Assembly: GCF_000485595.1 (NCBI RefSeq)
Contig: NW_014577311.1
Coordinates: 106,686-170,685, forward strand
Length of the DNA stretch: 64,000 nt
From: Priapulus caudatus
Lineage: Eukaryota; Priapulida; Priapulimorpha; Priapulimorphida; Priapulidae
Direction: 5' to 3'
The notes beneath the pieces were generated by a model. It worked only from the letters and a program-made list of their open reading frames with translations, was not told the origin of the DNA and made no database searches. This document shows positions 15,101 to 38,000 of this stretch, piece after piece. Made by a program: the position numbers and the translations under genes. Numbering within the stretch: position 1 is the first letter of the stretch; each line of letters starts with the position of its first letter.

Positions 15101-18100
15101 TTAGTCAGTGATATTAAACATTAGTTATTACATTCAGTTAACCTCAGTGTTAATGTAAATTTCAAGCAGTTTTACTATGCATGAAATCAGGTTATATTTG
15201 ATAGAATATTTTAGGGTTGTCAAAAACAGGGATCTATATGTTTCAGGACCAAAGTCCCACCACGGCCACAAGGTCAGAGAACTGAGCCTGAAAATAATGG
15301 GGTAAGCAAATGAAGTTGATGATGGCTAACTTCTACTAGCGAAACTATCAATTGGGCAATAATAATATACAGTACCATTTGGTGATTGATTGTGTATTGA
15401 TTTTAGCTGGACCTATTAAATCAACATGTCCACATCTTGTCTTGATGATTTTTTCACGTCTTTTGAAGAATTTCATGTGAAATAGCACGTGTCTGTAGTA
15501 AAGTTAAAGTGTGAGGAAAGAGATATTGCCAGAATTCTCCTTTTAAATTTCTGTTTTGTAAATCACAACAGCCTAAATTCTTAGTGATTATCAAGTTTGT
15601 GTAATTGGTAGTATATCCACTAATAGGTTAGACTGTATTTTTCTACATATTTATATTATTGGCTGCGTCGTTTTCATTATTGTATCCCCCACGACGAAGT
15701 CGGCGGGGATACTATGGTTTCATGTCTGTCCAGTCGCCGTCGCAGACACTTTCCCTTCTGCTCTATAACTCGACGCCTAATTGACCTAGCGTGACCAAAC
15801 ATGGTCTACTTACACATCTTGGGGAGAAGGTGCGCAGCGTACCGAAACCAGGTCACTATGACCTTTATTTGACCTTTACCTTGACCTTTATCATATTTCC
15901 CTTCCGCTCTATAACTCGGCCTCTAATTGGCTTAGCGATACCAAACTTGGTATACTTACACATCTTGGGGAGAAGGTGTGTCGCGTACCGAAACCAGATT
16001 ACTGCAACTTTTATTTGACATTGACCTTGACCTTCATCATATTTCCCTTCTGCTCTATAACTCGGTCCCTAATTGACCTAGCGTGAGCAAACTTCGTATA
16101 TTTACACATCTTGGGGAGAAGGTGTGTCGCGTACCAAAACCCCTAAGGCAACCAATTTTAACATACTTGCACATGTATCTCAGGCAGATGAGTTGTGTAA
16201 CAAACCTTTGTCTTTGTGACTTACTTAACTTTACCTACCTTCTACGTCCTTACAGAGATATTTCATTCATACTAGATCACGGGGGATACATGTAGTTGGC
16301 GACAACTGCCCTTTCTAGTTTGTTATAAGATTATTCGAAGACTTGAAAACAAAGAAAAAATCAATTTTAATATGTTTGATCTTGTTCAGCCATTTCAGAG
16401 TTTCAACTGGGGAGGAGATGGAGGATTTCAAATGTCATTTGGAATTGGTGCCTTTCCCTTTGGCTTATTTGCATCAACAGTGAATCTAGGAGGCCCACGG
16501 CTACCTGGTGGTAAGTAGAGCATATTTCAGTGGAATTTCAAAACAAACCAAGTCGGATACACACTACTCTACGAAAGAAAACACGACACTTGAATGCCTA
16601 GCAAGGCGTGATGTAACCAAGGGGCAAGGAGAGATTGTATCAAGAGTACCTAATAGAGAAGAGTATGACACCGTTTTAACAGCGTTTTGCATAGTTTTCA
16701 ACTTGTAAATATTCTATCAATATGTGAATAAATATATTCAAACTTTACCTTGTTTTTGTCTATGATTCTCCCTTAATCATATGACACCACCAATTTACCT
16801 GAAAATCGTATGTGTTCTTCAAAAAAGTTCTTTGAATATGACACGTTTCACACAGTTTTCACAAATGAGCACATGTATTCGGCTCATGTTGATATGCGGC
16901 GGCAGCACCAGGTTGTAACTACGGGACGCTGGGGGCTGTTGTGGATATTAGGTAAGAACAGTAACAGCACTTGTTTCTCTTCCTTATCATCAGGAACACG
17001 ATGGCAACACAGCTCAAATCAGCTGCTAGCTCGTCGTGAGCACACATTTATTTTTAGCACGCTGGAAACGCTACACGCTGAATACAATTCGATGCCTAAT
17101 CTCCCCAGCACCCCCAGCGTTCCGTCATAGACAATAGAACACTAATCCCATAATAAACTTGCGCCGAAAACATGCGCTCATTTGTGAAAACTGTGTGAAA
17201 CCGTGTCGTATTCAAAGAACTTTTTTGAAGATAACATGTATACGATTTTCAGGTAAATTGGTGGTGTCATATGATTAAGGGAGAATCATAGACGAAAACA
17301 AGGTAAAGTTTGAATATATTTATTCACATATTGATAGAATATTTACAAGTTGAAAACTATGCAAAACGCTGTTAAAACGGTGTCATACTCTTCTCTATTA
17401 TGTACTCTTGATTGTATATATACATTGACAATACATTTGCAATATCCGTGCTTGCTGTACTACCATGCTTCCGACAAGACATTGCTTGCTGTCCGTGTCA
17501 TTAGAAGTGATAACAGTATTTATGTCAGTTCTTTTTCACAATGTTACCTGGGGAGACCCCAGGAGGCGGTTTTACCAAATTAAGTCAATTAAGCATGTCA
17601 TAAGCAGCTCTAGCACACAGGTAAACTCAATTAGTTCGGAGATGCATTTATCAAGTTGTGTAAACTCACCATGACTGCGTTAGGATTGTCAAAAGAGAAC
17701 ACAGCTAGAAGTTAGGGCATGTCAATTAGGCAATTAAGGCATAATAACATCTTGAGGATTTATTGGATGTCGCAAATTAGCTTAAGCTTTGAAGGCATGT
17801 GGGACCTTACATGCATTAAGAGCCTGGGCATAGTATATGTGACCCGCTCCAGCAAAACCAGGATTAAGTAGGAAATTCTACAAATTGAGTTATGTGCATA
17901 TCTGAATAGATCATTTAATTACCTTTAAAATTATATATAATATTTGGCTATATCTAAAGAATTGACCGATCTACAGCAATTTGAAGATCGGAAACCGACT
18001 TATTCCGGAATATGCAGCTTTTGAGATAAAGCGTTCCGGGTATGGTGCCCAGTCGGGGATGAGCGGTCAGGGGCCCTTCAAAAAAAATTTTATTTTTTTT

Positions 18101-18705
18101 ATTTTTTTAAAATTAAAAATGACCATAATAATTTAGAGATATCTGAACCTAAATATCCGGATTAAATATGCACTTAGGAACTTATTTTTGTAAAAATCTC
18201 ATTTTTGTCCAGGTAGGCCATTTTCAGAATTGACATGTGTGCGTGCTCATTATTCAAAACAATGACTTGCGACTTAGTCCGTATTATGCTGGAGCGGGTC
18301 ACATATGTGTAAATATAGTGCTGATGAGAAGATGCAAAATCAAGGTTAAAGATCAAAAGGCCAATTGCTCTAAGGTGCAGATGTTCAAAAGCAGATTGGG
18401 GGATGAACCGCAGCTGAATAGTCGTTTGCGGCTCTATTTACTAATATTACTTTATTTGATGTTTGATCTTTATCAATTCTTCCTGCTAAAAAGACGATTT
18501 GTGGAACCAATTACTATTGACATACGAGATGCAACTATGCTGAATATTTTATTTCTACATGTATTTAAAGATTTACTTGTTTTAAATCTAAATTTTTCTT
18601 TTTTCAGCACAACCAGGGACACCCCAGTTCGAAGAGGAGCAGTTTCTGTCGAAGCTGTTTCTCTGGGTAGCTATTCTATTTATCTTCTGGTTGCTGGTTG
18701 CGTGA
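12189..18705 (+). CDS. RNF185: E3 ubiquitin ligase RNF185
   Basis: Five coding exons, 12189-12343, 14968-15099, 15247-15301, 16390-16510 and 18608-18705, join in phase to 186 residues (vertebrate form about 192). An acidic, Ser-rich N-terminus (1-28) precedes a C3HC4 RING with ligands C32, C35, C47, H49, C52, C55, C69 and C72. The surrounding sequence is family-specific: [20 protein letters not shown] and [35 protein letters not shown] and [15 protein letters not shown] follow, then a C-terminal hydrophobic anchor (about 171-185). RNF185 and RNF5 are tail-anchored ER/mitochondrial ligases acting in ER-associated degradation and autophagy. The RNF185-type linker ([11 protein letters not shown]) favours RNF185 over RNF5. 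The start is the first ATG before conserved sequence. Introns 1, 3 and 4 carry repeats or transposons, but every splice junction is intact. Confidence 0.95.
12468..12671. mobile_element. Inverted-repeat element with telomere-like core, TSD CAACATTC
   Basis: The ends carry AAGGATAGAGA and ACATGGGTCCCAATAAAACC in inverted order, and the left arm has a 7-bp duplication. The core from about 12556 to 12627 is degenerate GGTTAGGGTTA-type telomere-like sequence. The direct repeat CAACATTC flanks it (12460-12467 and 12672-12679). It lies in RNF185 intron 1. Confidence 0.75.
12842..13487. mobile_element. Long foldback element, 9-bp TSD GGCGTGACA
   Basis: Two arms of about 285 bp are near-exact inverted copies (outer tip TAGATAYAATAATGTAACCC, inner tip CTGTTGACCTGTGACGTAC) around a spacer of about 73 bp (13128-13200). 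The perfect 9-bp direct repeat GGCGTGACA lies at 12833-12841 and 13488-13496. The ORFs seen in both arms mirror each other because the arms are copies and are not separate genes. Foldback structure with a 9-bp duplication fits Mutator-like non-autonomous elements (inference). It lies in RNF185 intron 1. Confidence 0.85.
14562..14787. mobile_element. PIF/Harbinger-like MITE (AGCTGGGTTTACACT family)
   Basis: Inverted ends AGCTGGGTTTACACTACCGA and complement, 226 bp. The left flank is TAA and the right flank TCA, a duplication with one change. Internal subrepeats around GCCAACT/AGTTGG make the core partly palindromic. It lies in RNF185 intron 1. Confidence 0.75.
15686..16290. repeat. 146-bp tandem repeat, about three units
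   Basis: The block TTCCCTTCYGCTCTATAACT recurs at 15751, 15897 and 16043, giving a 146-bp period. Each unit also holds CACATCTTGGGGAGAAGGTG. A short hairpin, CCCCCACGACGAAGTCGGCGGGG, precedes it at about 15687-15709. It lies in RNF185 intron 3; ORFs here simply follow the repeat. Confidence 0.8.
16640..17411. mobile_element. TCARGAG-family long foldback, TSD TTGTA
   Basis: The left arm (16640-16877) and right arm (17170-17411) are near-exact inverted copies around a 292-bp unique spacer. The outer tips are TCAAGAGTAC and its complement. The 5-bp direct repeat TTGTA flanks it at 16635-16639 and 17412-17416. It lies in RNF185 intron 4, 129 bp after the splice donor. It shares tip sequence and TSD form with 22816, 31254, 32560, 34731 and 37244. 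Confidence 0.85.
17838..18303. mobile_element. Inverted-repeat MITE with TA flanks (Tc1/mariner-like)
   Basis: Ends TGTGACCCGCTCCAGCA and complement are flanked by TA on both sides, the duplication used by Tc1/mariner elements. The 466-bp body has no long reading frame of note. It lies in RNF185 intron 4. Confidence 0.7.
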
Positions 18706-18719
18706 CAGATGCCCAGTGA

Positions 18720-20030
18720 GACCCTCCAGTTCTTGCTGTGAAATCAAAAACAGACCTATCCGCGTTTCCCGACTCAGCAGTCATGTTTGAACGGGTGCCA
18801 CATAAACCAAACTATATGAAGTTGTTCTGCGCAGTGGATGTTCCAAATTGTGTGTCACTACTTACATGAAGTCAAGGACCTCAAGTCATCGCTGCAGACG
18901 GACATGATCACCACAATGCACGTATGCCATGCTGAAGACTGAGCGAGGGCTGATTTACAGATTTTCTTTAAAAGCTGCTAGCTGTGAGATTTATGTTTGG
19001 GTTACTTGTGTGGTTTGTCTGTAATGGCAGTTAGTGTTACAGTAAAAATATAGTACACAGGTAGGAATAGCATGGTTTTGCTAGTGTACACAATGCAGCC
19101 TTATATAACTTTAGTACTGACTACTAAATTATAGTGTAGCAGTGTTCTACTATAGGAGGTGCCGAATTTATGCATTTTGCATCACCCAGAATATATCTAA
19201 GCAGTCACTCCAATCTAGCATATATGTGTCCAGCATTACCCTATGGGTTAAATGTATTTTATTCATTTTTTAAACCAGAATATGGACATTAAAGGTGCAG
19301 GTAATCAATTGTGGAGATGAACTGTAAGGTATTTGTACACGGTGCATAGACTAATACATGCATGTCATGACTCACAAAATGCATGTTTATTATAATATTA
19401 TAATGACATGACCGTGTATCGTCTATCAGTTGAAATTTTCAACTACAACTGAACAAAACTCATGCTGCTGTATTTCTGAGACCATGTCTTCTAAGATGTG
19501 GTAGTCGTTGTGCAGTAGCCTGCCAGTTTCATTTCTGCACAAGAATAATTAATACGTTGATACAGTAAAATAATATCAAGAGCTTATAATACCTATATAT
19601 ATATAATAATAGCCTGATAATATTGGGATGTGAAACAGAACATTGAGGGCAAGATTTCTGTAGCTGTAAAAAATTCGAGATATATGAAATATTATCAAGA
19701 TGTTTACTAAAAATGGTATGTAAATTGCTCTTGGTATTTTAAAATATGTAATATATTATATATTGAAGGCATGTTGAATGAATGTAATTGTTAATAATAA
19801 AGTTCTAGTGCTAAGAAGACATTGAGTTATTGTACACGAATATATGTTTACAAGAAGTTATTTATGGTTTTACTGCAGTTTATTATACACTACCATGGGT
19901 GTTAACAAAAAAAGTTGGGACTGAAAAAATTGGGTCCAGTGGGATGGATTCTGTGCAATATAACATGCATTTGATGACATTTCTTGATAAGATAGAAATT
20001 AGTAAATGCTACAGTCTATTTAATCTGTAA
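18720..20030. other. RNF185 3' UTR and spacer
   Basis: Sequence after the RNF185 stop. AATAAA at 19796-19801 is the most convincing polyadenylation hexamer. No further conserved exon is seen. The ORF at 19830-20030 is not recognisable. Confidence 0.4.
19796..19801 (+). terminator. Candidate polyadenylation signal for RNF185
   Basis: AATAAA 1.1 kb after the RNF185 stop, followed by GT-containing sequence. The distance makes it only a candidate. Confidence 0.35.
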
Positions 20031-20037
20031 CATAAAA

Positions 20038-20384
20038 GCTTGGATAAAACACTTATACAAGAATATATAACAAGCATACATAGTTAAGATCATTAGATGC
20101 AACTCACTTAAAAAAAATTTTTTTATTAATTTAATTTAAAATTCATTAAAAAAGGTCCCAATTTTTCTTAAGATGGACGTCTGTCTACAGACAGACAGTT
20201 AACACCCATGCACTACACATGACACACAGAAAAATATACATAGACATGGCAAACAATCATTTTTTTAAATTCACAAATATTTACAAATGATAGAGGACTT
20301 GGATATGCCAAAAACTTGGATAAAACACTATTATATGAGTATATAACAAGCATACATAGTTAAGATCATTAAATGCAACTCACT
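20038..20384. repeat. Direct repeat pair of about 72 bp
   Basis: A segment starting CTTGGATAAAACACT and running through AACAAGCATACATAGTTAAG to GCAACTCACT occurs at 20038-20110 and again at 20313-20384 with few changes. About 200 bp separate the copies. Confidence 0.75.
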
Positions 20385-20409
20385 TTTTACAAAATTGTTA
20401 AAACTTTAA

Positions 20410-20997
20410 AGGGACAGTAGCCTCTAGGATTTTACTGCATACAACTGTACTTACTGTATAACAAATCATCTATACCCACATGTATTTGTCACCAGATACT
20501 TAATTAATTATTTACACATCAACGCTACGAAATTTGAACGGCGCCATGACACCCGCGACCGTGCTGCCACCCTGAAAAAGTTGCGTATTTGCATTTTTAT
20601 TTTGCAGGTAAATGACCGAGGGCTAATCACAAAAGTGCAATTATATTTATACCTAAATGCTATTTAACCGAACGATATTCATTTTAGGGCAAATTTATCC
20701 ATATTATAACTGAAACTATATGTCGTTTATAAGATATTACAATCCTTTTGCTTTTAAATGAATAAATAAGAAATACCCTCGGTCTGTAGCCCTTGGCTGG
20801 AAAGTGGTTTTGCGCAACTTCTCAGATCGTGCGCTTTGAGTGGCGCCACCGTCGTTGTAAGCAAACTGTAGTCGTTAGTTTTAAAACATTTAAAAAAAAT
20901 ATTTCTAATGGTGATTGAACCATGAAACTTTTTATGTAGCGCAATTATAACCTAAATTAGCTGAAAATAACCCTAGAACCTAGAGGCTACTGTTCCT
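20410..20997. mobile_element. TTAA-flanked inverted-repeat element, family A copy 1
   Basis: Ends AGGGACAGTAGCCTCTAGG and complement are flanked by TTAA at 20406-20409 and 20998-21001. A second copy in the opposite orientation lies at 39382-39980. TTAA duplications are made by Kolobok and piggyBac elements; the AGGG tip favours Kolobok (inference). It is non-autonomous, 588 bp. Confidence 0.85.
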
Positions 20998-21121
20998 TTA
21001 AGATTAAACAAAAATACAATAAAAATACAAATATTTACAAATGCTAGAGTCAAATCATTTTGTCAGCTAAACTTGGCACTTGTGAATGCAATGCATGCAA
21101 TTGCATCTCGACGTTGAAGTA

Positions 21122-24100
21122 TCAACTGCTGCTGCTGTCCTTTGGCTTCACAAACGTCATCTCGTCTCTCCATTTCATGAATGTAGGCTCTCCAGAACGC
21201 AGCAGGGGTTCAGGCGGGTCGTCCATCCCTGGCCGATCATATGCTGTAGAGATTATGGCTTGACGCTGCCCTTGCTGAACTCTGGGCCCATCACTACTTA
21301 CCAACCTCTCGCCATGGTAGCTGTGTTGTAAATTATACTATATATAGGTATTTACATATATAATAAAGGAGAACATTAGCGCTGCTTGACAATTTTTAAT
21401 TATCCAACACATAAATTTCCATTGCTTAAAATTAATTGGAAGTTAATAAATACTTGATTTCAACATGATGTGTTGATTAGAGTTTGTTTACATTTAAGAG
21501 ATGATGCCTGTGTTGTTCTTAGATTTTCATTTTCCTGTGACAATACTGAGCATTGGTAATTTTTAACCATTTAAATGATAAAAGATCGTAATATTTTAGA
21601 CTTTACATTAAGCTTTAAAAATTATACATGTTATAATACTAATCTTTTACAGTTAAATGATAGCTGCAGATCAATACAATTTACTTTGATTATAAGCTCT
21701 AGGTCTGAAAAGTTAGAAACTATAATTCAAAATCACTATCACCATGAATACATCAAAAATACATACCCAAATCCAATTTTGGATTTCCCAGCCTGTCCAT
21801 CCAACTCCACAGCTTCAGAAATACCTGATTTCATCTTTCCAAGTCCCTGACCCTCCTTCCATCCATGATGCTCCATGATTTTTCTACCAAACCCCTGAAA
21901 GGCCATTATAAAAATATACACTATCTAGATGCAATGATCTTATATAAGTGTCACATAATATTCCATGACAAAGAACTAGTAGACTGATTGCAAATACTAA
22001 CCTTAGTATATTTCTCAAACTTTCCAATTTTTTGGCTCTCTTCTGGATCAAGAACTTTCTTCCTTTTCTTTCGGTCTCCGAATCCAGCAGTAAACATATC
22101 AGTAGCTTCTATCCCAGCTCTTCGTCTCTGCTCTCTCCTCATCTGGACGAAATCCCTGAAAGATTGGCACAGGACGATTTCAAAAAGTTGCTTTACTGTT
22201 TTTTGTTAGGACCAGATATATACCAAATTATGTGCAATAGTGCTATTTACTGCGGTAACGGCAGATCCAGCAGGTTGGTTCCTCAAGGTTATTCCCTACT
22301 ACCCGAATCGATTACGGCAAATGAGTAAAAAAAACAAAGCAGTCATGAACATTTTAATCCTCCATTTTACATACTGCTTCCCAAATTTAGTATTCACTAG
22401 AGGCTTTAAAATTGTTGTCTGCTGTTCGGTGTCTTACCCAAAAAAGCTTATAGCTCTTCCCTATAGACCCACTTGCTGCCCACGTTTGGTCATGTTTCAG
22501 GCAAAATCACATCGTATTTTAGATGTTGCAATCAGAATTGATAGAGTGATTCAGTTTTGATAGCCATGTTCGCCAACTCAAAAATATCTCTACAGACGTT
22601 ATTATTTGGCAAAGGTTAGGGTGGTGAAAATGGCCACAGGGGGAACACCTACCTGCTGTCCTTATCTCCACCAAGAGGCTCATACCACACAGACATGTCA
22701 ACGTCCCACTCATCAGCTGTTCTCTCATCGAAATCTAATCGTAAGGATATTACAAAAGATTTTAATTTAACTGTCACAGTGCTGGCTATCAGAACAATTA
22801 CAATGCTACATAGTATCAGGAGTGTATCAAACACAAAAGTATTGATACACTCCTGATAGTATTAGGTGTTAGAATGCCCCTGTGTGAATGCAGCAAGGGT
22901 AATTAAACCTAAAAAAATGTGTGTATCACTGTGAGCTAAGGTTATAATGTACAGGTGTCTGTAGCACTATAAGTTTACAGCTCACATGACACAATATGAG
23001 TGGGGTTTACACATCAACAATAAGTGATCTGATCAAAGTAACACGATCTGTCTAAAATACTGCTAAGACAGTTAAAATGGGCACAAGCGGTTTCACCTCC
23101 TTCCAATTGGTCCCAGTATGCTGCATCTGTATGCCAGACAAGACCTGGCCCACCCTTTTCCCAGGTCACCTCCATTTCTTCTTCATAAAGTCTTTCCTTT
23201 GTGCGATCCTGCGAGGTGACATCATTGTGGAAGGATTCGTACCTATCCCATTCCTCACCTGTGTCGTCATCCTAGAAAAGCGGAACATGGCCAAGCACAT
23301 TATTATTTGTTTCTTTCAGTTATAGATGCTGTTAACCTGAATCACATTGATTATAGTATCTAAATTGTACTTGGCCAAGACAGTAGTTCCCCTGCGATTG
23401 GTCTAACATAACGATATATAATTGTAACACTGCACAGTGTAGATATCGCTTACTCAGAAGATTTCCTAAGAAGAGTTCTAATAATTTAATTCTGCCTTTG
23501 GAAATGCTGCTGTACGAATGGATACATGTCATCTGAACACTTAATTACCTCTCCAGAATCTGTGTCGTTGCTGATGCTGTTGTTGTCATCCTTCCTGGTT
23601 TCCGAGGGCATTTGTGTCTTTAAATACACATCGCTCAGCTGCATCCCTGAAGCTGTAATGACTTCATCTTCCTCAGTATCTAATCTTGAGTAGGTTTCCC
23701 CACCGTAATCACATGGCACATTCCCATAGCGGCGATTTGATCTGCAAAATAAGAGTATTTCAAATGTGAGCTTGTGCTCTGACAAGTCATTAAATGCCTT
23801 TTGCCACCTAATAAATTCCCTATTTTACATTTGATTAAAAAAAACTATGAGGAACCAAACACAGTTGATTCACACATGGTCAAGATTATGCCAGTTTATT
23901 ACCTTGACTTTGGAAACTGCAATCCCAACTGTTTAATGAGATGCCCTGGCATTCTGCACAACCTTATCTGCTCCAGGAAATATGTTACAGGTGTTCCCAC
24001 GTTGCCCTGTGGCATCACGGGTGGGGGGTGAAGCTCAGCAAGTTGCCTTATGTTTACATCGGTCAGCTGTTCCCGATCTGGGTCAATCTGTCGCTGTTCT

Positions 24101-25265
24101 TTCCTGGTCACGTACTTGGAACTTGCAGTACCTGTATCTGTGAACAGAAAACATTAGTTATAAGTTGAAGATGATCCTATATCAGAAGAATTACTGCCTG
24201 AAAGCTCTGGAGCATACAGAAATAACAAAGGTTAACAACGAGAGACTCTGTGGCTCAGTGGTAGGCATCGTGCACTGTCCACCAAATGCTGTGAGTTCAA
24301 ACCCCGGCCGGGGTAATGAATTTTCTCAAGGTGTAAAAACCTGGCTCTCAACATTGGAGACTGAATCTCCCGTGGCTCGGATGACCACGTAAAATGGCGG
24401 TCCCGTCTCCAGAAATGCTAGCCAATAGGGACGTAAAAGAACCACTGAGGGTGCAAAGGAACTCTGGCTGTGACCACCCTCAGTGCCATTTGGCTAAAAA
24501 GCTGACTACCTGGCTTTACCCAAGCTAGGTCACACCTCATGGCTAGTTATAGCCCGTTGCCTCGATGCCAAATTTGGATACTGCAACGTACTACAACAGA
24601 AACAGAAACCAAGCTATTAATAAAAGCAAAAGGCCCATAGAAAAGCCACGTACCTGTACCAGGTACCTGTCTGTAAATGATAAAGGTCAATTTAGGTATT
24701 CCCATAGAGTGGTTGTAATAACCAGATTTGTCTGCATTAATTGTTATTTATATACTAAGTAGGCTATCATTTCGTGAATACCATTATCTGATGATGTTCT
24801 TAGCTTTGCTATAAAACATTTTGACTGGATCATGTTTCCTTCCTTGTCAAGCCAGTGTTTTCTGTGGTACATCTTTATAAGCTTTTCTACATTTTCATTC
24901 GCTAGCCGTACCACACAGCATGTTGTATTCATTACACTGTCACTGAGCCGCGATTTACTTCCTTCGCCTTCTGTTGTACAGGATTGCGTCCCACTACTAG
25001 TAGTAGTAGTACTTGCACTAGCAGTAACTGTTGATCTTGCAACGTTTGCTACAGTCACAGTGAGTACAGAGTCTGAGACTGAAGATTCCGGAACGTTTTT
25101 TAACTGTTTCGTTTCTGGTCGATGCCGAAAGTGAAAACAATTAAAACCTCCAGATTCTATAAATTGAGAAAAGTAATTTCTTAGATCGGACGATCTATAA
25201 TAAGGAGGAATATTCCCAATAATACATAAAACAAGCGATGCATTAGTTTCGATGGGGGCAGACAT
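21122..25265 (-). CDS. GPATCH3: G-patch domain-containing protein 3
   Basis: Eight coding exons on the minus strand, 25265-24782, 24137-23903, 23741-23549, 23271-23097, 22734-22653, 22155-22002, 21894-21767 and 21320-21122, give 549 residues in uninterrupted phase (human about 525). Signatures in order are an N-terminal RRM-like block (SSDLRNYFSQFIESGGFNCF, then HFRHRPE), WLDKEGNMIQSKC, PPPVMPQGNVGTPV, LQFPKSRSNRRYGNVP, EEWDRYESFHNDVTSQDRT, a WEKGGPGLVWHTDA block, FDERTADEWDVDMSVWYE and a G-patch at about 442-486 (GFGRKIMEHHGWKEGQGLGK). The C-terminus has KWRDEMTFVK. G-patch proteins typically bind nucleic acid or DEAH helicases; vertebrate GPATCH3 is linked to regulation of antiviral signalling and transcription. 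An odd point is a Ser/Thr/Val-rich low-complexity insert (about residues 60-95) in exon 1. Confidence 0.95.
22816..22856. mobile_element. TCARGAG-family mini-palindrome, TSD TAGTA
   Basis: A 15-bp arm TCAGGAGTGTATCAA, an 11-bp loop and the exact complement, 41 bp in all. The 5-bp direct repeat TAGTA flanks it (22811-22815 and 22857-22861). It lies in a GPATCH3 intron and has the same arm sequence as 34731-34762. Confidence 0.85.
24241..24570 (+). mobile_element. tRNA-derived SINE
   Basis: The head carries RNA polymerase III promoter boxes with tRNA-like spacing: A box TGGCTCAGTGG (24251-24261) and B box GAGTTCAAACC (24293-24303). The body that follows has CTCGGATGACCACG and GGTCCCGTCTCC, which resembles the conserved core of some widespread animal SINEs (unverified). 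The acceptor stem does not close, so it is not a functional tRNA. It lies in GPATCH3 intron 1, antisense to the gene. Confidence 0.75.
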
Positions 25266-26640
25266 CTTGGACCAACGACAACTACCAGGAACTGACGTCG
25301 TATCGCCTATCGGGTCGATCGGTGGTGTGTGCTCACATATTTGGGCAATACTGCATCGTTAACAACGATATATTTGTCATAATACATAAGAAGAAAGCGT
25401 AACATGATCACAAATAATTAAAAACTTGTATATATTGAGTACACCTAAGAACAGACCGACATTCTGCGGGCAATAATCTCTGGCTTTATACTCGCACCCC
25501 TTGCACTATTACCCGCTACCGCGAATAGGCTCACCCAAAAAGCGGAACACCCGCAACAAAAACAAATGACTCACTCGTCTCCCAGCCACAGCCAGTCGGC
25601 TTATTCAACTGAGGAGAACTTGTCATTTAGCGGTAGGTGATATTTTCCATAATAATTATCGCGTAACGGTTTACTGGTTTGGAGCTCTATGCTACGTGGA
25701 ATGTTCTTTGATAAAACACCATCACTGGGGCATTGGCGAGCACCACGAAATCGTTAGTTGTGCGATCAATGAGAGACGTATGTAATACTAATAGTAATTG
25801 GTAATACTAATACTAATAGTACTAAATACATCTTTATGTTAGCCGGCACAATCCTATTCCTAGGCTATACTGCCTATAGTGAATGTGATTGTCATGGGCA
25901 ATGGCTCGGTACTTTGCGTTAAGCGTAGCAATTAGCGTTGCCATTCAAGTTAACGCACGCATTTGTAACGGAACTGAGTATTGAATCATTAAGTCGTGCG
26001 CTCGTGAGGAAATGGCACGACCCTGCATCTAGAATCTAGATACAATAACGCAACCCATTCTCGAAATTCAAAAATTCTCCAATACATGCAGGCCGAGTAT
26101 GTGAATCAAATTTATTTCTTTATTGAGTAAGTGATTCTTGATGGGCACAGTGACGTCAGACTCATTAACTACACAACTGACCAACATCTTTCTCCTTCCT
26201 CGTTTGTTACTGTCTCTTGGACTATCAATAATGTTCTTTAATATCAGGTTATGAGGTTAACAGATAATGTAAGTATAAGTTTAAGCGAACTTCTACTAAG
26301 CTCATGCACTCAGGAGGTGGTAAATCTGTGTGCTTCAAACACTGCTCAGTCCTGACCATTCATTGTTATTATTAAAAGATTATATCATCACTAACCCAAT
26401 CCACGAATAAAAAACATTCAAGCTGGCCAATTCTTTAATTAGAACTGCGTGAAAGCCAAAACACACTTTAGCAACATTGACCACTAGTAACGTCTTGGAA
26501 AATTAAAAACAGCTGTTTCTAATAAGCAGTTGCATGCGCATGTGATAATGTCAAGTAACATTATAATGCCTACCGGTATATAACAGTTTACATTGTTTGT
26601 GATTTTCAATATATGATTGTGTACAGCTGTTTTCATTTTC
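25266..26640. other. Start of 9.8-kb gene desert; GPATCH3 upstream region
   Basis: Upstream of the GPATCH3 start. No coding segment is recognised, and no inverted-repeat element with clear ends was seen in this part. Confidence 0.45.
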
Positions 26641-26658
26641 CATTCTATTATATTACAT

Positions 26659-27785: not shown

Positions 27786-28275
27786 AGGCTCACAATGCGC
27801 ATCCAAACGCTAATTTCTCCAGTACTAGACTATAGCAAATACTTCGTGTCATGCATAATCACACTACCTTATGGCAAAATAAACTCTAGTTCCTCCCATT
27901 TCACTGCGCGTTTGCTTAAAACCCACAAGAAAGAGGTGAGAAAACTGGCATTCTGGCGCAAACGCCGACTGTTTCCCAAACAAAATAGCCTCGAAGTGGT
28001 GACGTGACGTCACATGTTTTTATCTTTGCTGCGCCCGTACCGCTGTACCGCGGTACCGCTGCACGGTTGCTTGGAGATTGGGGAAACTGTCAACAACATC
28101 GGAGAATTTCAACAACATTGGAGGTATTTTCAAAATACCTTTTATAAGACAACGTGCAGTGAAATTGGAGGAACTAGAGTTTATTTTGCCATAAGGTAGT
28201 ATGATTATGCATGACACGAAGTATTTGCTAGTCTAGTACTGGAGAAATTAGCGTTTGGATGCGCATTGTGAGCCT
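27786..28275. mobile_element. TTAA-flanked element with long inverted repeats, family B copy 1
   Basis: Ends AGGCTCACAATGCGCATCC and complement continue as inverted repeats of about 130 bp (containing GCTAATTTCTCCAGTACTAG). TTAA flanks it at 27782-27785 and 28276-28279. Its core holds CCGCTGTACCGCGGTACCGC. A second copy, cut by the window end, starts at 63686. Confidence 0.85.
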
Positions 28276-28279
28276 TTAA

Positions 28280-29760
28280 GACAAGCCTACATCATGTACA
28301 CACCTCAATCCTCGAATGCATGCATGCTCGCATGCACATGCATGAACACAAGTATATCACCTAAAGGCTAAACTGTTCACACCCACATATCTCGTACACT
28401 ACAGATCTCTACACAATTATACCCATACATGTAAGAACATTGAGTTCCGACTAATCTCGAACATGCTCGTAGGCTAGTCAACCCTCCTTGTTGTGGTTTC
28501 TTTATCAGTTTATTGCTTGGGGCATTCATCCTCATTGATGTCTGTACGACATGAAATACGCGTTGTGGACAAGATAAGATAGAAAAGTATGGAAACTAGG
28601 CCAGCACATTGATGGTAAACCACACGCGTGTGACACAGTGCCCTTATACGTAGGAGGGTCGACATGGAAATAATAATACGCAGCTGCTACCATACCTGTT
28701 CATTATAATAATAAAAAAATCATCAGCTCCCTACATTAGGTATATAAATATTTAAAACGCCATATCCTTGTTGCTCATTGCAACCAAAACCGGATAGAAA
28801 AATGGGTACATTCCCTCAGTACTATTTATCCCAGTTCAGTGAGGAGTACTTGAAAGCAAGGTCACATAAATTTGCCTTAGATTCATTTCAACGAAAGAAT
28901 TTACTTTCACCTTGAAAGACCTTCATCCAATTCACCAGCTCTAGGTTATCGGTGAACATAACTATATTTTTTTCTGATGAACAATCTGTTCAAAGATTCT
29001 AAACCACAGATCTTGTGGGACCACTGTGGGAATATGTATCATATTCGATCAACATTATCTTACATGATTTATTTTAAGTGGTTTGTGCCACCATGAACAG
29101 TTATCAACGTTCAGGGTTCACGTTTTGTAGATAGTCACGTTCATAGTTGTCTTTCGTTGGTTAGCTCATGTCTGTAATGTGCAGCCTACGTCGTGGCACT
29201 GGTACATGTTGGTGAGAGTGCTGGTGTTTGTCTTCAATAGCAGCTACGCCCTGAACAGTTAATATTATAATGTTCAAAGATGTAGAATGCTGGGCAAATA
29301 AGATACCCCTGGTGCGAAAGGGAAGGGAGAGGAGAGGCGAAATAGAGACTCAGTGAGGGGGTCACAGTGGGGGACAGTAAAAGAGGAGGAGTCGAGAGGG
29401 TGCAAAAACTACTTCAAATGGTAATGTAGGCCATCGTATATAAAGATGTAGAACGTGGTTTTCATTTTAAGACTCGAATCCAAGTAGCATGACATCTTGT
29501 GAAAATGGGTCATTAGGGCTTGATCTTCGTATCTGAATACTCTCTCTGTATGATTTAAAATTTTCTCGTGTACGTTTCTGGCAAATTTTATTGTCTGGCA
29601 TGTGACTTGGTTAGATTGTTAAATCTTCTTTATTGCATCATTGAAGTTTATTTTAAACTGAAATGATTTGATATATGCTTTTCTGCACGTGTGCGCTCTG
29701 GAATGTCCGCTTGTCTGCTTCTCCGGTTGTCTGCGCGTTTCTGCTCTATGGATTTATTGA
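28280..29760. other. Intergenic sequence, nothing recognised
   Basis: No conserved reading frame, RNA gene or element boundary found. Confidence 0.4.
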
Positions 29761-29793
29761 CATGATGTACGGAATATCCTCCTCGTAGGCATG

Positions 29794-29838
29794 TATGTGC
29801 GTGCGTGCGTGCGTGCGTGCGTGCGTACGCGTGTGTCA
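29794..29838. repeat. (GTGC)n microsatellite
   Basis: A run of about nine GTGC/GTGT tetranucleotides. Confidence 0.85.
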
Positions 29839-30105
29839 TTATGCACAGAGCTGTACTCTTAGTCATAGATGTGCGCTCAGTGTTTCTGCTTGTTCCTGGA
29901 AGAGGCGCGCTCATCGCTCTCCTCACCAGAATGGTAATTGAAGCATTATTTCACTCCTAAGAAAGTATTCCATTCGACAGCTCTTCAAAGTTGGGAGTGA
30001 TGATATAGCGGTCGTTGTGCTCGTTCGTGAGATTCTTTCGGTTTTCAGTTCTTACTGTGAGTGTGCATGCAGCTGCCTCCAGCCGTATACGCTTACCCCC
30101 TTGTG

Positions 30106-30107
<2 letters not shown>

Positions 30108-30136
<29 letters not shown>
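30108..30136. repeat. (TG)n microsatellite
   Basis: About 14 TG dinucleotides. Confidence 0.9.
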
Positions 30137-30138
<2 letters not shown>

Positions 30139-30397
30139 CTCACAGCGACCGGACAGCTTTGACAGGGAGTAAGAATTGGCTGACTTACGTGTGGTGAAGA
30201 ACTAGCCGTTTTGCTCAGAAGGAAATTTGTGAATAGTGGAGGTAGAAAGTAGCAGGAGATCTGATCTCGTTGTTCAGGATTCTGTGTATTGACGTGTGAG
30301 CGAAGATTTGGGAAGCCTGCGTACCAAGCCTGTGCTTTCACTTGGTGCCCAACGTGGTGTAGGTTTTAGAGCCATACCTAAGCCATGTGAGTCCGTG

Positions 30398-30512
30398 TTG
30401 TGTGTTTTTGCGCATGCCTGCGTGCGTGCGTGTGCATGCATGTGTGGTGTGTGCGTGCATGCGTGTGCGTGCATGCGTGTGCGTGTGCGTGTGTGTTAGT
30501 GTGTGTGTGCAT
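30398..30512. repeat. Compound TG/TGCG low-complexity tract
   Basis: Imperfect GTGTGCGTGCATGCGTG repeats. His/Cys/Val-rich frames through it are artefacts. Confidence 0.8.
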
Positions 30513-31253
30513 AATGTGTCCGTCAATTATCTGGGAACACAAATGAATGTCGCACCATCGACCTAGGCAGCGCTGACTCAGGCCGGAGATGCGAGCCAAT
30601 ATAGTCTGACTCATTCCCCAGTGAGACCCCTACCAGGCACTCAAATATCCGAGTATCACATATCACGTATGTGAGGCCAGTAGCCTCCCCACAAGCACAG
30701 AGCTTCCTTCGTAGTGTAAGTAACTATAGCGTACTTCCTTGGTCGTTAGAAAACAAACGAGGGATTCTGCTTGTACTGGTGTGTAAAATAATGTGATCAT
30801 TGGGATGAGGATGCGACTATTGTTAATTGAACATCTTCTGTATCTGGTCAACCCACCTGAATCCTCAAGACTGCATATCTGCGCACATCACATAGGATTA
30901 TGAAGGTTATACTTAGATTATAGTACTCGGAGTCGATGTTATTGTTTATATAATTAAGTTTGATGGCAGTGCACATGCCTTTATTGATGCGCTTAGCTGC
31001 ATAAGCTCTGCTGATTCATTTTTTTATGCCACAGCATTTTTTAAGTATTGTTGAGTCATTGCGGAATTAATTGAAGCTGGTAAACATTGAGGTTTCGTCG
31101 TGAGTGTATGACGTATGGGCTTGTAATATCTATACACTGTTGTGTGCGATTTTGTAGTCGGTGTGTGAGGCTGTAGTGTTCAATAATTATGTATTGTGCC
31201 GTTGCAAGGCTGCTACATGCCTGTAGTATATGTGACGTTATAGTAACATATAG

Positions 31254-31293
31254 TCAAGAGCATATAAAGAAGGCCTTCTTTATATGCTCTTGA
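31254..31293. mobile_element. TCARGAG-family perfect 40-bp palindrome, TSD TATAG
   Basis: TCAAGAGCATATAAAGAAGG is followed directly by its exact 20-bp complement, with no loop. The 5-bp direct repeat TATAG flanks it at 31249-31253 and 31294-31298. It shares its arm with 37244-37282. Confidence 0.85.
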
Positions 31294-32299
31294 TATAGTA
31301 TAACAGCTCAAGGTTGTAAGTGTAACGATGTAAGCGCGTGCTTCTGTAGTAAGTATATGATACTGATATACGTAGGTGGAAGTAACGGAACTGAGTGTTA
31401 CTAAGTTAAATGTAATGTGTTCGGAGCGCTGTAGTGTTTGTATGAGGATGTACTAGTGAGTGAGGAATCGTTGTAGGGTGTAATTTTGCGGTAAGTGCAC
31501 GATGCCGGCATAAGTGTGCGTGGTGGTCAATGGTAGAGAAACAGCCGGTTCTTAAGCGACACGCTGTCAGCTGGCCATCAATTCACGGGGATTTCACAGT
31601 AATTGGTAGCAATTGATGGAAACGATGATTTAGCTAAAGTGCTGGAGCCTGGAATATAGTTTGCGTCGCGCGCTGGTTGGCAGCTGGCATTTTGATGCTT
31701 GTCTGTCCGTGCCATCGCGGTGCGGGCGGCGGCTGCGGGGATCCGTGTTTGATGGAAATGCACGCCCAGTGTGAGTGGAGAGGCTAGTAATGACGTTGTC
31801 CCGGCCGAAAATAATCATCAGCTAATTGAATTCATCGTGCAGAAGTCCCTTCCTTCATTTGTGCCCAGCCGGTGGCTACTCTGTATTGCGTCATGCTGCC
31901 ATAACGCCGAATAACACAAGCCATTTAGCAAGGAATATGAGTGCAATCCATTTAGTAAGGATGTGAGTGTAATCCTCTATCACAGCGCAATTTCCTGAAG
32001 AAGCTGTATACATACAGGTCTATATGCGCGATGCTGACCCGACCAATCGCTCAAATCAAGCAAGTTTAGTGACTGATTGGTGGTATATTGAGTGGTTGGT
32101 GGTGACGCACTTGCGTCCCGGTTGTAAAGGGTAGCAGTCAGTCCGTGGGCGCGCATCCATTGAGTGCAGGACGGGTGTTGGCGTTTGTTGGAGACGTCTG
32201 CGTGGTCTTTAGGCAACTCTAGATACACTAATGTAAGTTGTAACCCAAATGTAGTTCACCCTACTCTGTAGTCTGTTGTGTTACGTTGTTGTAGCTATT

Positions 32300-32490
32300 T
32301 GTGTCTATATTATTGTATCTATGGTGTCTATATTATTGTATCTATTGTGTCTACATTATTGTATCTATTGTGTCTACATTATTGTATCTATTGTGTCTAC
32401 ATTATTGTATATATTGTGTCTACATTATTGTATCTATTGTGCCTACATTATTGTAGCTATTGTGTCTACATTATTGTATCAATTATAAGG
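32300..32490. repeat. 23-bp minisatellite, about eight units
   Basis: Units of CTACATTATTGTATCTATTG plus TGT, with small changes. The YCVYIIVSIV-type peptide repeats in two frames come from this array. Confidence 0.9.
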
Positions 32491-32559
32491 CAGTTCGTGC
32501 GGATTGCTACTGCTGCGTTATATTGTTCAGCCGTTACGCGATATTGTAAATACATATGA

Positions 32560-33164
32560 TCAAGAGTAGATAATAGGGAAGGAGTGTGACTTCAATAAAC
32601 AAGGGAAATTCGTCATTTACTAGCCTTAGAATACCTACGATTTACTACGCGTAACTCAACCAACTTGAGCTTAAATCGTACACAGTACATTCGTCTAGCA
32701 TCGTGCGAAATCGTTTTCTCGTATACACCCGCAATCCGGAGATACAGGCTAAAACGTACGACACGATTTTCCATTATGTTGCCAGCAAACTGAATGTGTA
32801 AACCGCCTAACTCGAAACAAAAGGCAGCTGTAAATAGGTCAAAGATTAGCTCTGCGAGCCACACCGCATCGCTGAGGGCGCAAGAGTCGTTAGTAGCTGC
32901 CTTTTGTTTCGAGTTATGCGATTTACACATTCAGTTTGCTGGCAACATAATAGAAAATCGTGTCGTACGTTTTAGTCTGTATCTCCGTATTGCGGCTGTA
33001 TACGAGGAAACGATTTCGCACGATGCTAGGCGAATGTACTGTGTACGATTTGAGCTCAAGTTGGTTGAGTTACGCGTAGTAAATCGTAGGTATTCTAAGG
33101 CTAGTAAATGCCGAATTTCCCTTGTTCATTGAAGTCACACTCCTTCCCTATTATCTACTCCTGA
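32560..33164. mobile_element. TCARGAG-family long foldback, TSD TATGA
   Basis: Arms of about 270 bp are near-exact inverted copies around a 66-bp spacer (32830-32895). The left tip is TCAAGAGTAGATAATAGGG; the right tip, on the opposite strand, is TCAGGAGTAGATAATAGGG. So both tip variants of the family occur in one element. TATGA flanks it at 32555-32559 and 33165-33169. Mirror-image ORFs in the arms are a consequence of the palindrome. Confidence 0.88.
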
Positions 33165-33170
33165 TATGAT

Positions 33171-33376
33171 CAAATATATCCTGACTATGGTCTGTAGCTC
33201 CAAGAAAATACATCAAATATATCCTGACCATGGTCTGTAACTCCAAGAAAATACATCAAATATATCCTGACCATGGTCTGTAGCTCCAAGAAAATACATC
33301 AAATATATCCTGACCATGGTGTGTAGCTCCAAGAAAATACATTAAATATATTCTGCCCTCGGTCTAGCTCCAAGAA
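33171..33376. repeat. 43-bp minisatellite, about five units
   Basis: Units begin CAAATATATCCTGACCATGG and end CCAAGAAAATACAT. The array starts immediately after the right TSD of the foldback at 32560-33164. Confidence 0.9.
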
Positions 33377-33379
33377 ACG

Positions 33380-34725
33380 GTCATATATCGAAAGACCGTT
33401 GTTTATTGACGTTGGTCTCGCAGCATGGTCGGGCTACTCCCAATCGAATCTATTTGCGTGTTGGACGCAACGATATCATGTACATGCGTTTGTATGTGTG
33501 GGTATAAGGTCCCTTCGCGTGTGTTATATGAAAACGTGACACATCGATCGGTGCCGTTGACGGCATATGCGATGTTGTTTGTGATACATTGTATAATTGC
33601 ACCTGCCAAGCATCCAGCCGTGTACACCCAGCCCAGTGGAGCGTGTCCCCCGCTTTCAGTGCTAGTGTTAGTCAACAGACTCTACACTTACCGCGCTGGC
33701 ATTCAGTTTTAAACCGACGGTTGGCGGTGCACGTGGCGCCCGCTCTACCTACGCACCGGCTGCTGGCAACGCGACTATATATATATCCTGTTATTGCGCG
33801 ACTCGCCTGTCACATCCTAATAGTGCGTGCCGAAGATCCTGTTATCTTCAAGTCAACACCCAAGACGAGAATTCTGTGTCATTGGGTGGAGTGAAAGCTG
33901 CAGCTGCCGTGCCTGGAGGGCGACGACGGAGTAGCAGACGCTATTATTTGCTGTGTAAATAGTACGGTGAAAGTCTGACAGCTTACCTAAGGAACGTCGT
34001 TCTGCCTAGCCCAGTAGAGCTGTGAGCGTGACACAGTTCCACTGAAGATTTTAGTGGATGTAGTTGTAGTGGTATGTTTAATCTCAGAAGTGAATAAAAA
34101 CACAATCCTGTTTTATACGCTTCTGATATTATTACGGTTGCCTTGATCTATCATATCGTTCATATCAGTTGATAATGGTGCCAACTCTGACTTCGTTTCA
34201 AAAACAAACAATCTCTCGAGCGAAGACTGTTTACATAGGATTAGGGCAGCTGAAATTAGATCCAAGGCTGGCAGGAAATGTACCACGTAGTTGTGCATGT
34301 TACACAAACCATGGCTCTACATGGCTAGTTTATTCTACAGCAACGTTGCAAGTTTGAAACTGCCAGTTTAGCTGATTGTTTGTCCGGATGATGGGCACGT
34401 ATGTATGTGTACCTGTGTACGTGCTGCAGTGTACGAATTTCTACAGCGTTAATTAGCCCAATTACAGGTAAAGATCACAGTCGTGAACGCACACCACAGA
34501 ACACAGTCGTGCTCGATTGGTTACATTGCGTATAAATGATAGCATATCTCTCGGTGGGTGCTGTCAGTAAATTAGGTAACACGTCAACACGAATTGCTAA
34601 TTGCTGTTAAAACGCCCATAACTTGCTAGTATGGTGAAGTTTATACTATTGGGACATGTAAGAATTTGCGTATGAATCGTTTTTAAGGATGTATGCTTGC
34701 TCGAGTGAGTCCGTGTGCGCATACA
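33380..34725. other. Intergenic sequence upstream of the myosin gene
   Basis: No recognised exon. ORFs here (for example 33425-33712) show no family motif. Confidence 0.4.
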
Positions 34726-34730
34726 TGTAA

Positions 34731-34762
34731 TCAGGAGTGTATCAATATTGATACACTCCTGA
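34731..34762. mobile_element. TCARGAG-family perfect 32-bp palindrome, TSD TGTAA
   Basis: TCAGGAGTGTATCAAT plus its exact complement, without a loop. TGTAA flanks it at 34726-34730 and 34763-34767. It is the smallest member and lies about 330 bp upstream of the myosin start codon. Confidence 0.85.
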
Positions 34763-35089
34763 TGTAATCATGAAGCTACTCGGAGATGGAGAAGGTATAA
34801 AAGAACAGGGAGAGGATGAACAAGAGATGAGGGGGAGATGGAAATGGGAAGGGGAGATGAACGTCATCGAACGGAGAAACAGAGATGCTGTGGGAAACCA
34901 CGGCCAGAGAAAACATATATACATATATATTTTATTATGTGATGATCTATCAAAGTATAGATATCGAATAATTATATCAATATCAATAATTGGCATAGCA
35001 TCTAAATTTTGCATTGTCACTACAAATTTGTTCTTGTTTGTGATGATTCAGCTCTGACTGAGTGAGATTTCACTGCTAAGCCTGGTGTG

Positions 35090-38000
35090 ATGGAGCACGA
35101 CCTTCATTTGAGAGACAGGGTAGGACTGCAGGACTTTGTCCTGCTGGAAGACTACCACGACGTCAACGCCTTCATAGAAAACCTGCGAAAGAGATTCAAT
35201 GAAGACATAATATATGTGAGCACGAAATAGACAGCGATCGAAACATTCTACTTTGCTATTTCATTTTTTTTCTACTTCTCTCTCCTCTCTCCTCTCTCTC
35301 TCTCTCTCTCTCTATGTATATATATATAGCAATTTTGTTATCATATTAATATTAGCTGTGGGCATATGTAATTTTACCGTCGAAGAGTGCCGATAGATGA
35401 AAAACGATCTAGTCTAGAACACTTGAGTATCATGCGTAATGCATTCTGTCCCAGTTGACATGCCGGAGTGATATCCCGTTAAAGTGTCAGTTTAGATGTG
35501 GTTGACGTTTGTGTCTGTTCACAGACGTACATCGGTCCAGTGCTGGTGTCTGTGAACCCCTACAGGGAGCTGCCTATCTACAGCCAGGAGTATATCGAGA
35601 CATACAGAGGCGAGGCATTCTATGAGCTGCCACCACACATGTAAGTCTTAACACGTAATTGCCCTATAATGTCGCCTGCAATGTAGTATGAGGAGGAAGC
35701 ATCGGTAGATGCACAACTAGTGTGCTGCTCTCTCTCTGGTGCGGAAGGCAAGAAGACAGGCACAGGTAAGCAAATGGGGAAAGATACATGGGGCAGATAT
35801 GCTGGTCTAGCAGCTACATAAATGTCACAGAGACACAGATGTTACAGCAAATATATGCAAACAGGATAGCAGAGGTCGAATTTGTATTCTTTATGGCAAG
35901 GCAAGTGTTGCCATTGCCTTAATAAGATATTCTATTGCACCACCGCAAGTTGGAGGGATACCAAAGGAAAAATTACCTTGAGATAAGTGTTTTCGGGGAC
36001 AGTTATTAGAACTAACTTTTAACATGGAATTTGCAACATGGAAATTGCGTTTCGTAACATGGAATTTATGAGGCAGAAACGGGGGAGCGCCAGGTAAGGC
36101 AGCCACGGCAATTTATAGCCGTAGATATCTTCCAGTTTTCAGGGGAATTCATGTAAGTATGGAGAGGAACCACGGCACTTGCTATTCGGCACTTGTCTTC
36201 ATTGCCTCGCCAACATTCGAGAACTGGGTGTAGGTTCACATATTGCTGATACACATTCGTGGCAGGTAACTGCAGCAACTCAAACATAGTAGGTGATACA
36301 GCAGCGTGACAGATACAGAGGCACTGAGTGACTGACTACACATAATTACTCGAATAATGAAGTGTGAGCATATTGTCGCTGATGTAGTGCTCAGAGATCA
36401 AGAGTTGATGACAGCTCGGTGCTGATTATGCCAGAAGGCATGCGCACCTCTAGCCATAACTTAATGACCCGACAACATGTTACCCGCGAGTTGGAGTGTT
36501 CGTTAACAAGCTAATGAAGTTAGCACTCATTACTGTAAGGTGATAGAAGAAGAGTCAGGTGTCTGAAAAAAGTTTGTTGAAACTGTGGCGCACCTTTCAT
36601 GAAACGAATATACGTAAATTCGTTGTGCGTTATCACAGTTGTGTAGGCGGGGGCATGTGAGTGGGGTTGTAGGTTCAGTGTGTGACAGATACAGCGTGTA
36701 TATCTGCGGGCGATGACCCATCTAGTTCGGGTCGCGTGCTACCGTGCGGCAAGCTTTGTCGTGCCAATTTATTGTGGTGGTTGTAAAGCTGTTGCTGGAA
36801 TAGTCAGCATAGCTCGAGTTTAGATTGACCACAATTGCCTAATGGAACTAGTTACGGCCCGACGACATTTGTCCATGATTATTCATTGAAACGAAATAAA
36901 CCAGTCAACTAGCATTATGGTTAGTGGTATTGTCTCTTAGTTTGTTTTTGAAGAACCACCATTTCAGAGAAAGAGGTCACTAGTGTTCCTTGCCGTACCT
37001 CGACTTAGAGTCGGTGCTGGTATAATTACAAAGGCGATGTCTTGTGGGGTGTGATGAACACATCCATGTTAGTGATTAAGCAGTGAAATAAGTTTGCTAG
37101 ATGGGGAACAGATAGACAAAGAGACCAAACGTCTGTGTAGCAGCTTTTTATTTTTCACATGGTTGCGCATGGCAGAAGCTGGCACATTTGCAATAACCCC
37201 AACCTTGGGCTAGTTACTGGTACACATTACTGGTTGCATATAATCAAGAGCGTATAAAGAAGGCTTCTTAATACGCTCTTGATATAATTGTACCTTCCAT
37301 GCATATACGTGGCAACGCGGCCGCAGTAGCGAGATCAAGCATGAATGAACACACGAACATCTGAATATAGGCGCAAATGTGCAGCCAGTGGCGGCGTTTA
37401 CGTGTGTCTGGTAAGGGCGGGGCAGATGGATAATGAACCTAAATCTACAGTAACTGTATCTGCGTTTGCATCTGCTTTCATGCGCACCGAATCCTGACAC
37501 TCTGTACTTTCTCCTCAACTACACGCTGGTATTCCGTCTGCAATAGAACCCGTCCGTGGTGCTTGAACCCAGTAATGTCGCAGATGGTAATCACCGTCTA
37601 TTGGTAGTGTCAATAGCATGTGAAGTCATGAAAAACGCCTGAATGCTGCCATCTAGCCTGTCATGTAGTGGGCTTGGGTTGGGTTCCCTCAAAAATACAA
37701 CTAATAGGTTATCAGAAAGGTCCGTCGTATTTCTAGTGTAATTCGCACATTTGTGATGTGTAACTAAGCAGTTATAGGTGCAATGGAATGTAACACAGAA
37801 GTCATAGAGTGAGTGGGGTTCAGTATGCGATCTGTATGGGTCCACTGTCATCAGCGTGCTGAAAATCCACAGAGTCGCCCGACTCAGTCGCGTAGTGTGT
37901 CCACAGAGTCGCCCGACTCAGTCGCGTAGTGTGTCCACAGAGTCGCCCGACTCAGTCGCGTAGTGTGTCCACAGAGTTGCCCGACTGAGCCGGCCGGCTC

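Follow-up and report, generated by a model that had tools for sequence, protein, structure and literature searches.

Short palindromes in the genome of Priapulus caudatus as probable excision scars of a P-like group of transposons

Palindromes in the window

This paper deals with a group of palindromic transposable elements of the priapulid Priapulus caudatus, studied in a stretch of 64,000 nucleotides from contig NW_014577311.1, which we call the window, and in the whole assembly of 385 Mb. A sequence-only reading of the window had described six palindromes with TCARGAG tips, each between perfect 5-bp direct repeats, and when the window was re-read all six were located where they had been placed. 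There are ten inverted tip pairs up to 3 kb apart in the window; a flanking repeat is present in six of them, which are the six described, and absent from the other four, which are cross-pairings. A scan allowing up to two mismatches in the tip finds the same six and a degraded seventh (19576-19617, 5-bp repeat TAATA), compared with none in the reversed window and none in 20 shuffles of 3-base blocks. Exact repeats of 7 or 8 bp flank seven out of seven sites, but none of 42 mismatched flank pairs.

On the best reading of the seven sites (Table 1), five are excision scars of 30-40 bp and two are foldback elements, all from a P-like group. The earlier proposal of one foldback transposon family holds as far as a single transposon group is concerned, but only the two long sites are foldback elements.

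Table 1. Elements with CARGAG-type tips in the window. Positions are those of the window.
Position	Strand	Feature	Length	Sequence features	Target duplication or flanking repeat
16641..17410	.	full non-autonomous foldback element	770 bp	tips CAAGAG..CTCTTG	ATTGTAT, 16634-16640 and 17411-17417
19577..19616	.	degraded excision scar, not among the six first described	40 bp		ATAATAT, 19570-19576 and 19617-19623
22817..22855	.	excision scar	39 bp	CAGGAGTGTATCAA, filler, TTGATACACTCCTG	ATAGTAT, 22810-22816 and 22856-22862
31255..31292	.	excision scar	38 bp	two 19-nt arms, flush junction	ATATAGT, 31248-31254 and 31293-31299
32561..33163	.	full non-autonomous foldback element	603 bp		ATATGAT, 32554-32560 and 33164-33170
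34732..34761	.	excision scar	30 bp	CAGGAGTGTATCAAT / ATTGATACACTCCTG	ATGTAAT, 34725-34731 and 34762-34768
37245..37281	.	excision scar	37 bp		ATATAAT, 37238-37244 and 37282-37288

The target duplication is 7 bp long

For 49 copies with a perfect 5-bp repeat the flanking 5-mers were tabulated, as the sequence-only reading had proposed. T is the first base of the 5-mer in 47 of these copies and A its last base in 46, and the base preceding it is A and the base following it T in 48 copies each. With this A and T the site reads ATNNNAT, so that the T and A bordering the element could themselves be duplicated target sequence. The claim that the group has its own target rule is borne out in this form, in which the target is palindromic around the duplication and the outer letters are present in 46-48 of 49 copies.

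As a test of the outer bases, palindromes without the outer T (VCARGAG..CTCYTG) were sought in the genome. There are 1,801 matches in forward and 1,838 in reverse orientation, whereas the control gives 707 and 721. Forty of the listed places with clear arms were selected by eye and fetched; 28 of them have a matching 5-bp core and were counted, the other 12 were not. In the counted places, where a base other than T precedes the left tip, the right-hand repeat ends in that same base in 15 out of 18 cases, and where a base other than A follows the right tip, the left-hand repeat starts with it in 15 out of 16. Overall the substitute outer base is shared with the opposite repeat at 30 of 34 informative positions. 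A 5-bp duplication would leave these bases unrelated. Therefore the duplication measures 7 bp (ATNNNAT) and occasionally 8 bp. The outer T and A, taken earlier as parts of TC..GA tips, lie outside the element, whose tips are CARGAG..CTCYTG. With a duplication of this length and with these tips, the argument that the elements fit no known superfamily falls as well.

Exact repeats of 7 or 8 bp are far more frequent than in mismatched flank pairs. They are found in 36 of the 48 short palindromes of the first listing (30 of 7 bp and 6 of 8 bp; 68 of 2,256 mismatched pairs), in 8 of 15 longer palindromes (14 of 210) and in 26 of the 40 places selected for lacking the outer T/A (24 of 7 bp and 2 of 8 bp; 11 of 1,560).

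Palindromes and uncut elements in the genome

The genome-wide search for inverted TCARGAG tips, which had also been proposed, shows a strong excess. The pattern TCARGAGN5-30CTCYTGA occurs 2,269 times, compared with 25 times for the pattern read backwards, and the same tips with an N31-60 spacer occur 1,864 times, compared with 46. In total this makes 4,133 inverted tip pairs within 74 bp for a control of 71, not all of which need be scars, because cross-pairs and tandem arrays are included. One tandem array (locus L053) is made of units of about 26 bp containing TCAGGAGCC, which mimics the tips and accounts for one palindrome without duplication. Flanks were read for 53 pairs no longer than 44 bp, including four from the window: 36 had a perfect 5-bp repeat, 6 a 6-bp repeat and 11 neither.

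The 770-bp element of the window has outer inverted arms of 173 nt with 99% identity, and the 603-bp element has arms of 271 nt with 96% identity and 65 nt between them. Relatives of the former elsewhere in the genome are 89-94% identical over most or all of its length, and at least 121 matches were obtained with 40 of 318 candidates scored; for the latter there are at least 94 matches, with 40 of 876 candidates scored. Over their terminal 31 bp the two families are 84-87% identical. The ends of ten other 603-type copies carry a 7-bp repeat in four cases, an 8-bp repeat in four (three of them in AT runs) and none in two. No frame of 130 aa or more lies inside either long element. With their long inverted arms, no gene and many copies, the 603- and 770-bp copies are high-copy non-autonomous foldback elements or miniature inverted-repeat transposable elements (MITEs). 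A comparison of the two long elements with the fetched loci yielded, among the matches listed, uncut family ends and scars, besides a further weak match of 32 nt.

Uncut ends of the 603-type family were found 313 + 327 times at up to two mismatches, which corresponds to about 320 elements. Among the matches listed, there are 26 neighbouring pairs of a plus and a minus uncut end, 22 of which are 474-820 bp apart. Three others are at least 49 kb apart and were excluded from the spacing analysis. The remaining pair, 9,454 bp apart (C96:346657-356110), was rejected as a long element, as it is an inverted duplication with mirrored identical 20-bp flanks. Scar-type palindromes sharing the first 16 nt of these ends number 334, compared with none for the reversed pattern. 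In this family, the only one counted, scars and surviving elements are roughly equal in number (334 versus about 320), the two numbers having been obtained at different stringency and the 334 including sister variants.

The short palindromes keep the tip to a fixed point

The short palindromes have a tip-to-tip structure, which was studied for 50 listed scars out of the 334 in one tip group, with CAGGAGTAGATAATAGGGAA followed by GGAG as the uncut reference end. Thirty-eight of the 50 have at least one arm keeping 17 nt and were used; the remaining 12, for the most part sister variants, were not included. The 76 arms of these scars keep 16 (6 arms), 17 (7), 18 (13), 19 (21), 20 (28) or 21 nt (1) and none is longer, the lower bound of 16 nt being set by the search pattern. 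Agreement with the uncut end is found in 40 of the 76 arms at position 20, in 3 at position 21 and in 1 at position 22. The corresponding numbers for 14 scars read from loci, 12 of which are also among the 50, are 18, 1 and 0 out of 28. On the other hand, the 20 ends of 10 uncut copies agree in 18, 19 and 18 cases at these positions, and in 18-19 at each of the positions 20-24. Because the scar arms lose agreement past position 20 while the uncut ends continue, the tip is retained up to a fixed limit at position 20 and not beyond it.

What lies between the two tips is variable. The 50 listed scars comprise 42 different sequences as read and 39 distinct centres if orientation is ignored. Copies of a small unit should share their centre, and since the centres differ we read the short palindromes as scars. 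Inserts of 1-16 nt are present at 21 of the 38 junctions, and these fillers are in part copied from the arms: for the eleven fillers of at least 4 nt the word sharing with the arms sums to 60, against a shuffle mean of 42.3, and none of 2,000 shuffles reaches 60. A second set of 20 scars from loci gives 89 against 75.8, a value that none of 1,000 shuffles reaches; as the arm limit was set by mutual pairing in this set, part of its signal may be unrecognised arm.

Two loci contain scars in combination. At L005:172-257 one scar lies inside another, each with its own repeat, and at L044:202-271 two back-to-back scars share the repeat ATTTTAT, which is present three times. Since a scar keeps two target copies, both arrangements are most simply explained by repeated use of one site. 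In addition, two scar-like palindromes of 55 bp (L002:1105-1159 and L087:2040-2094) have tips CATAGAAATARTATAGATAAC, different centres and the 8-bp repeats GTTCCCAC and GTCACAAT. These are possibly scars of a second P-like family.

Comparison with known transposons and other palindromes

Transib and RAG-like elements make a 5-bp duplication and have CAC tips; they are ruled out by the 7-bp duplication and the CARGAG tips. The duplication of hAT elements is 8 bp long, but of 48 sampled palindromes 30 have 7 bp, 6 have 8 bp and 12 have none. Elements with long terminal repeats (LTRs), which are direct repeats with TG..CA ends, do not fit either, as the ends found here are inverted repeats with CA..TG.

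The P superfamily, and Galileo as its nearest representative, seems to be the best match, judging from duplication length, palindromic target, CA..TG tips, long arms and tip-keeping scars. The duplication has the 7-8 bp of this superfamily, and the target is palindromic and centred on it (ATNNNAT, compared with GTATTAC in Galileo). A second-strand cut well inside the tip is indicated by the sharp 20-nt limit, seen in one tip family and read with a presumed strand polarity. The tips CARGAG..CTCYTG are of the CA..TG type, for which CATGATG is described in Drosophila (PMC2895639) and CATACC in zebrafish (PMC10983969).

The P-element transposase of Drosophila makes a 17-nt stagger (PMC7776569), and the excision products described in PMC2895639 consist of the target repeat, up to 17 nt of tip, filler, the inverted tip and the repeat. 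The Priapulus scars are like these footprints in that the duplication is kept on both sides, the tip is kept to a fixed position and the fillers are copied from nearby (PMC2895639, PMC7776569). However, they keep 20 nt and not 17, and the duplication is 7 bp (some 8) and not 8. Furthermore, the fly footprints are laboratory-made events, whereas in Priapulus many natural scars are present in one genome, and the system is known here from scars and from elements without transposase.

Galileo makes 7- or 8-bp duplications with the consensus GTATTAC and shares with the Priapulus elements the long inverted arms, the mostly 7-bp and sometimes 8-bp duplications and a palindromic target (PMC4168063). 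It differs in tips and target, which in Priapulus are CARGAG and ATNNNAT instead of GTANTAC, and in the phylum; the word "footprint" does not occur in the main text of PMC4168063. The zebrafish Pdre2/THAP9 elements, which possess a P-type transposase, likewise have CA..TG tips and target-site duplications, but their tips are 13 bp long (CATACCTGTCAAC) and their duplication 8 bp, according to PMC10983969. Bacterial REP sequences resemble the scars as many palindromes of 20-40 bp (PMC3733652). Unlike these, the Priapulus elements are eukaryotic, have duplications from staggered insertion and derive from the ends of longer transposons.

Search for the transposase

Transposases of the P type have an RNase H fold with a GTP-binding insertion, and their domain PF21787 has 64 matches in the genome. 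One open frame of 827 aa carries PF21788, PF21787, PF12017 and PF21789, and no CARGAG tips were found near it. The P-type loci were also searched for any 7- or 8-bp duplication with inverted ends and for ends common to copies, and none fits. One P-type locus on C136 (L166, L080 and L167), situated between 7-bp repeats 5.1 kb apart and with other ends (GCTGATAGGG), was set aside. This locus has long inverted repeats 5.1 kb apart, with the 7-bp repeat CAAGTAA and the ends GCTGATAGGGTC.

Within the window, a Pfam scan of ten of the frames of at least 130 aa gave only CFAP298 and a myosin-head match below its cut-off. The earlier statement that no transposase for the elements is seen in the window is in agreement with this result.

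Excision model and alternatives

We consider it very probable that the short palindromes are scars of a P-like cut-and-paste group with a palindromic 7-bp target, a second-strand cut set 20 nt inside the element and repair by end joining. According to this model, a CARGAG..CTCYTG transposon would insert into a palindromic ATNNNAT (7 bp, sometimes 8) and duplicate it. During excision the transposase would free the 3' ends of the transposon at the tip and cut the other strand 20 nt inside the element, so that both target copies would stay at the donor break, with a 20-nt single-stranded tail of the element on each side. End joining would seal the break, often with short fillers copied from the tails, and the product would be a palindrome of about 24-70 bp, made of tip, filler and inverted tip, between intact duplications. 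The 770- and 603-bp palindromes would be resident non-autonomous foldback copies. It is the strand polarity of the cut, an alternative or theta-type end joining and an enzyme of the P superfamily that we infer.

Several observations weigh against this model. An exact repeat is absent from 12 of the 48 short, 7 of the 15 longer and 14 of the 40 selected palindromes; some of the palindromes without repeat are decayed, L047 and L048 come from cross-pairing within one nested locus, and L053 is the tandem array mentioned above. The 20-nt limit is measured well in one tip family only, with 12 of the 50 listed scars left out, and 11 of the 38 scars used repeat the centre of another. If each centre is taken once (by hand), 17 of 54 arms end at 20 nt and one at 21. 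Flush junctions with neither insert nor overlap make up 17 of the 38, five of them with both tails complete, as in GGGAA/TTCCC, and microhomology does not explain them. A perfect 40-bp palindrome recurs in 4 of the 50 listed scars with four different repeats (L002, L004, L016, L018), which a moving unit would also give. Finally, the scans covered 30 P-type loci, out of the 64 matches, together with as much as 1.5 kb of sequence to either side, and no P-type gene was found between CARGAG inverted repeats, nor was one found at nine of these 30 when about 3.4 kb was included (one shortened by a contig end). A longer member with the same tips and a transposase, which the sequence-only reading had suggested looking for, did not turn up among these P-type loci.

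The scars could be real and the transposase could belong to another eukaryotic superfamily that makes a long staggered cut, as the missing P-type gene between CARGAG tips in the scanned loci would suggest. We think this unlikely, because the group agrees with P and Galileo in the length of its duplication, its palindromic target, its foldback habit and the retention of tips in its scars, and because P-type transposase matches are many in the genome.

Much less probable is that the short palindromes are minimal transposons, two tips with nothing between, that are mobilized by the same transposase. In favour of this, their tips are intact, their target duplications are perfect and the 40-bp sequence recurs exactly at different targets. 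However, moving copies should share a centre, and 39 distinct centres occur in 50 listed members of one tip group; the tip sequence stops by position 20 in 75 of 76 arms whatever the centre, and one transposase complex could hardly bring together two ends separated by 0-10 bp of stiff duplex DNA.

P elements yield internally deleted copies through interrupted gap repair. The palindromes might accordingly be such deletion derivatives made after excision, and not joined cut ends, and incomplete repair synthesis from P-element breaks is described in PMC2895639. This origin, to which we give just as little credence, predicts many lengths beyond the cut, but only one of 76 arms keeps 21 nt and none keeps more.

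As for a foldback family outside the known superfamilies with TC..GA tips and a 5-bp TNNNR duplication, literal 5-bp repeats are indeed present at six of six sites, but the shared substitute outer bases refute that length and the A and T just outside the 5-mer speak against it too, so that this reading can practically be given up.

We therefore keep to the view that the short palindromes are scars, and the CARGAG-tip group, which appears to work like a P element, likely belongs to the P superfamily. The suggestion that the elements are possibly undescribed may hold for the family itself, as no description of such elements in Priapulus was found in the titles and abstract openings that literature searches listed; it does not hold where it was derived from the misfit to known superfamilies.

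Other features of the window

The window also harbours inverted-repeat elements of other types. A TTAA-type MITE (20410-20997) has inverted-repeat tips AGGGACAGTAGCC, the other end being one letter off, with TTAA on both sides; the same tip is found after TTTAA at locus L078. A second TTAA-flanked inverted-repeat element (27786-28275) has tips AGGCTCACAATG and arms of 52 and 89 nt. The near-palindrome CAAATATCATGTACAATTGTACATGATCTTTG of 32 bp (61525-61556) is flanked by the 7-bp repeat ATAGAAG and could be a scar of another family. The CFAP298 gene pieces and the myosin-head match under its cut-off lie at 1543-2712 and 52597-53091. A frame at 1624-2184 shares 98% identity with a protein of Priapulus caudatus, followed by hits of 72% (unnamed) and of 68% or less (named). 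A long CA/TG-rich repeat at about 59800-61050 contains a run of N, and there are 493 N in the window.

Significance

Scars of such a form were already known from experiments with the P element of the fly; here very many of them are present in one non-model genome. For the analysis of other genomes two warnings follow: what looks like a tiny "MITE" with perfect duplications may be a scar, and a conserved target can disguise a 7-bp duplication as one of 5 bp.

On balance we favour the view that several thousand scars have been kept in this animal genome from germ-line excisions of a single transposon group, whose enzyme makes a 20-nt staggered cut and belongs either to a branch of the P superfamily with a shifted cut or to another superfamily that likewise cuts deep within its ends. 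If this is true, scars would offer the target again to new insertions, as in the nested and back-to-back scars. Each scar would be a break-and-repair product with known starting ends, from which the cut position of an unseen transposase can be read directly. The scars would then make up an extensive natural collection of repaired breaks from a priapulid and would allow the end-joining habits of its germ line to be measured.

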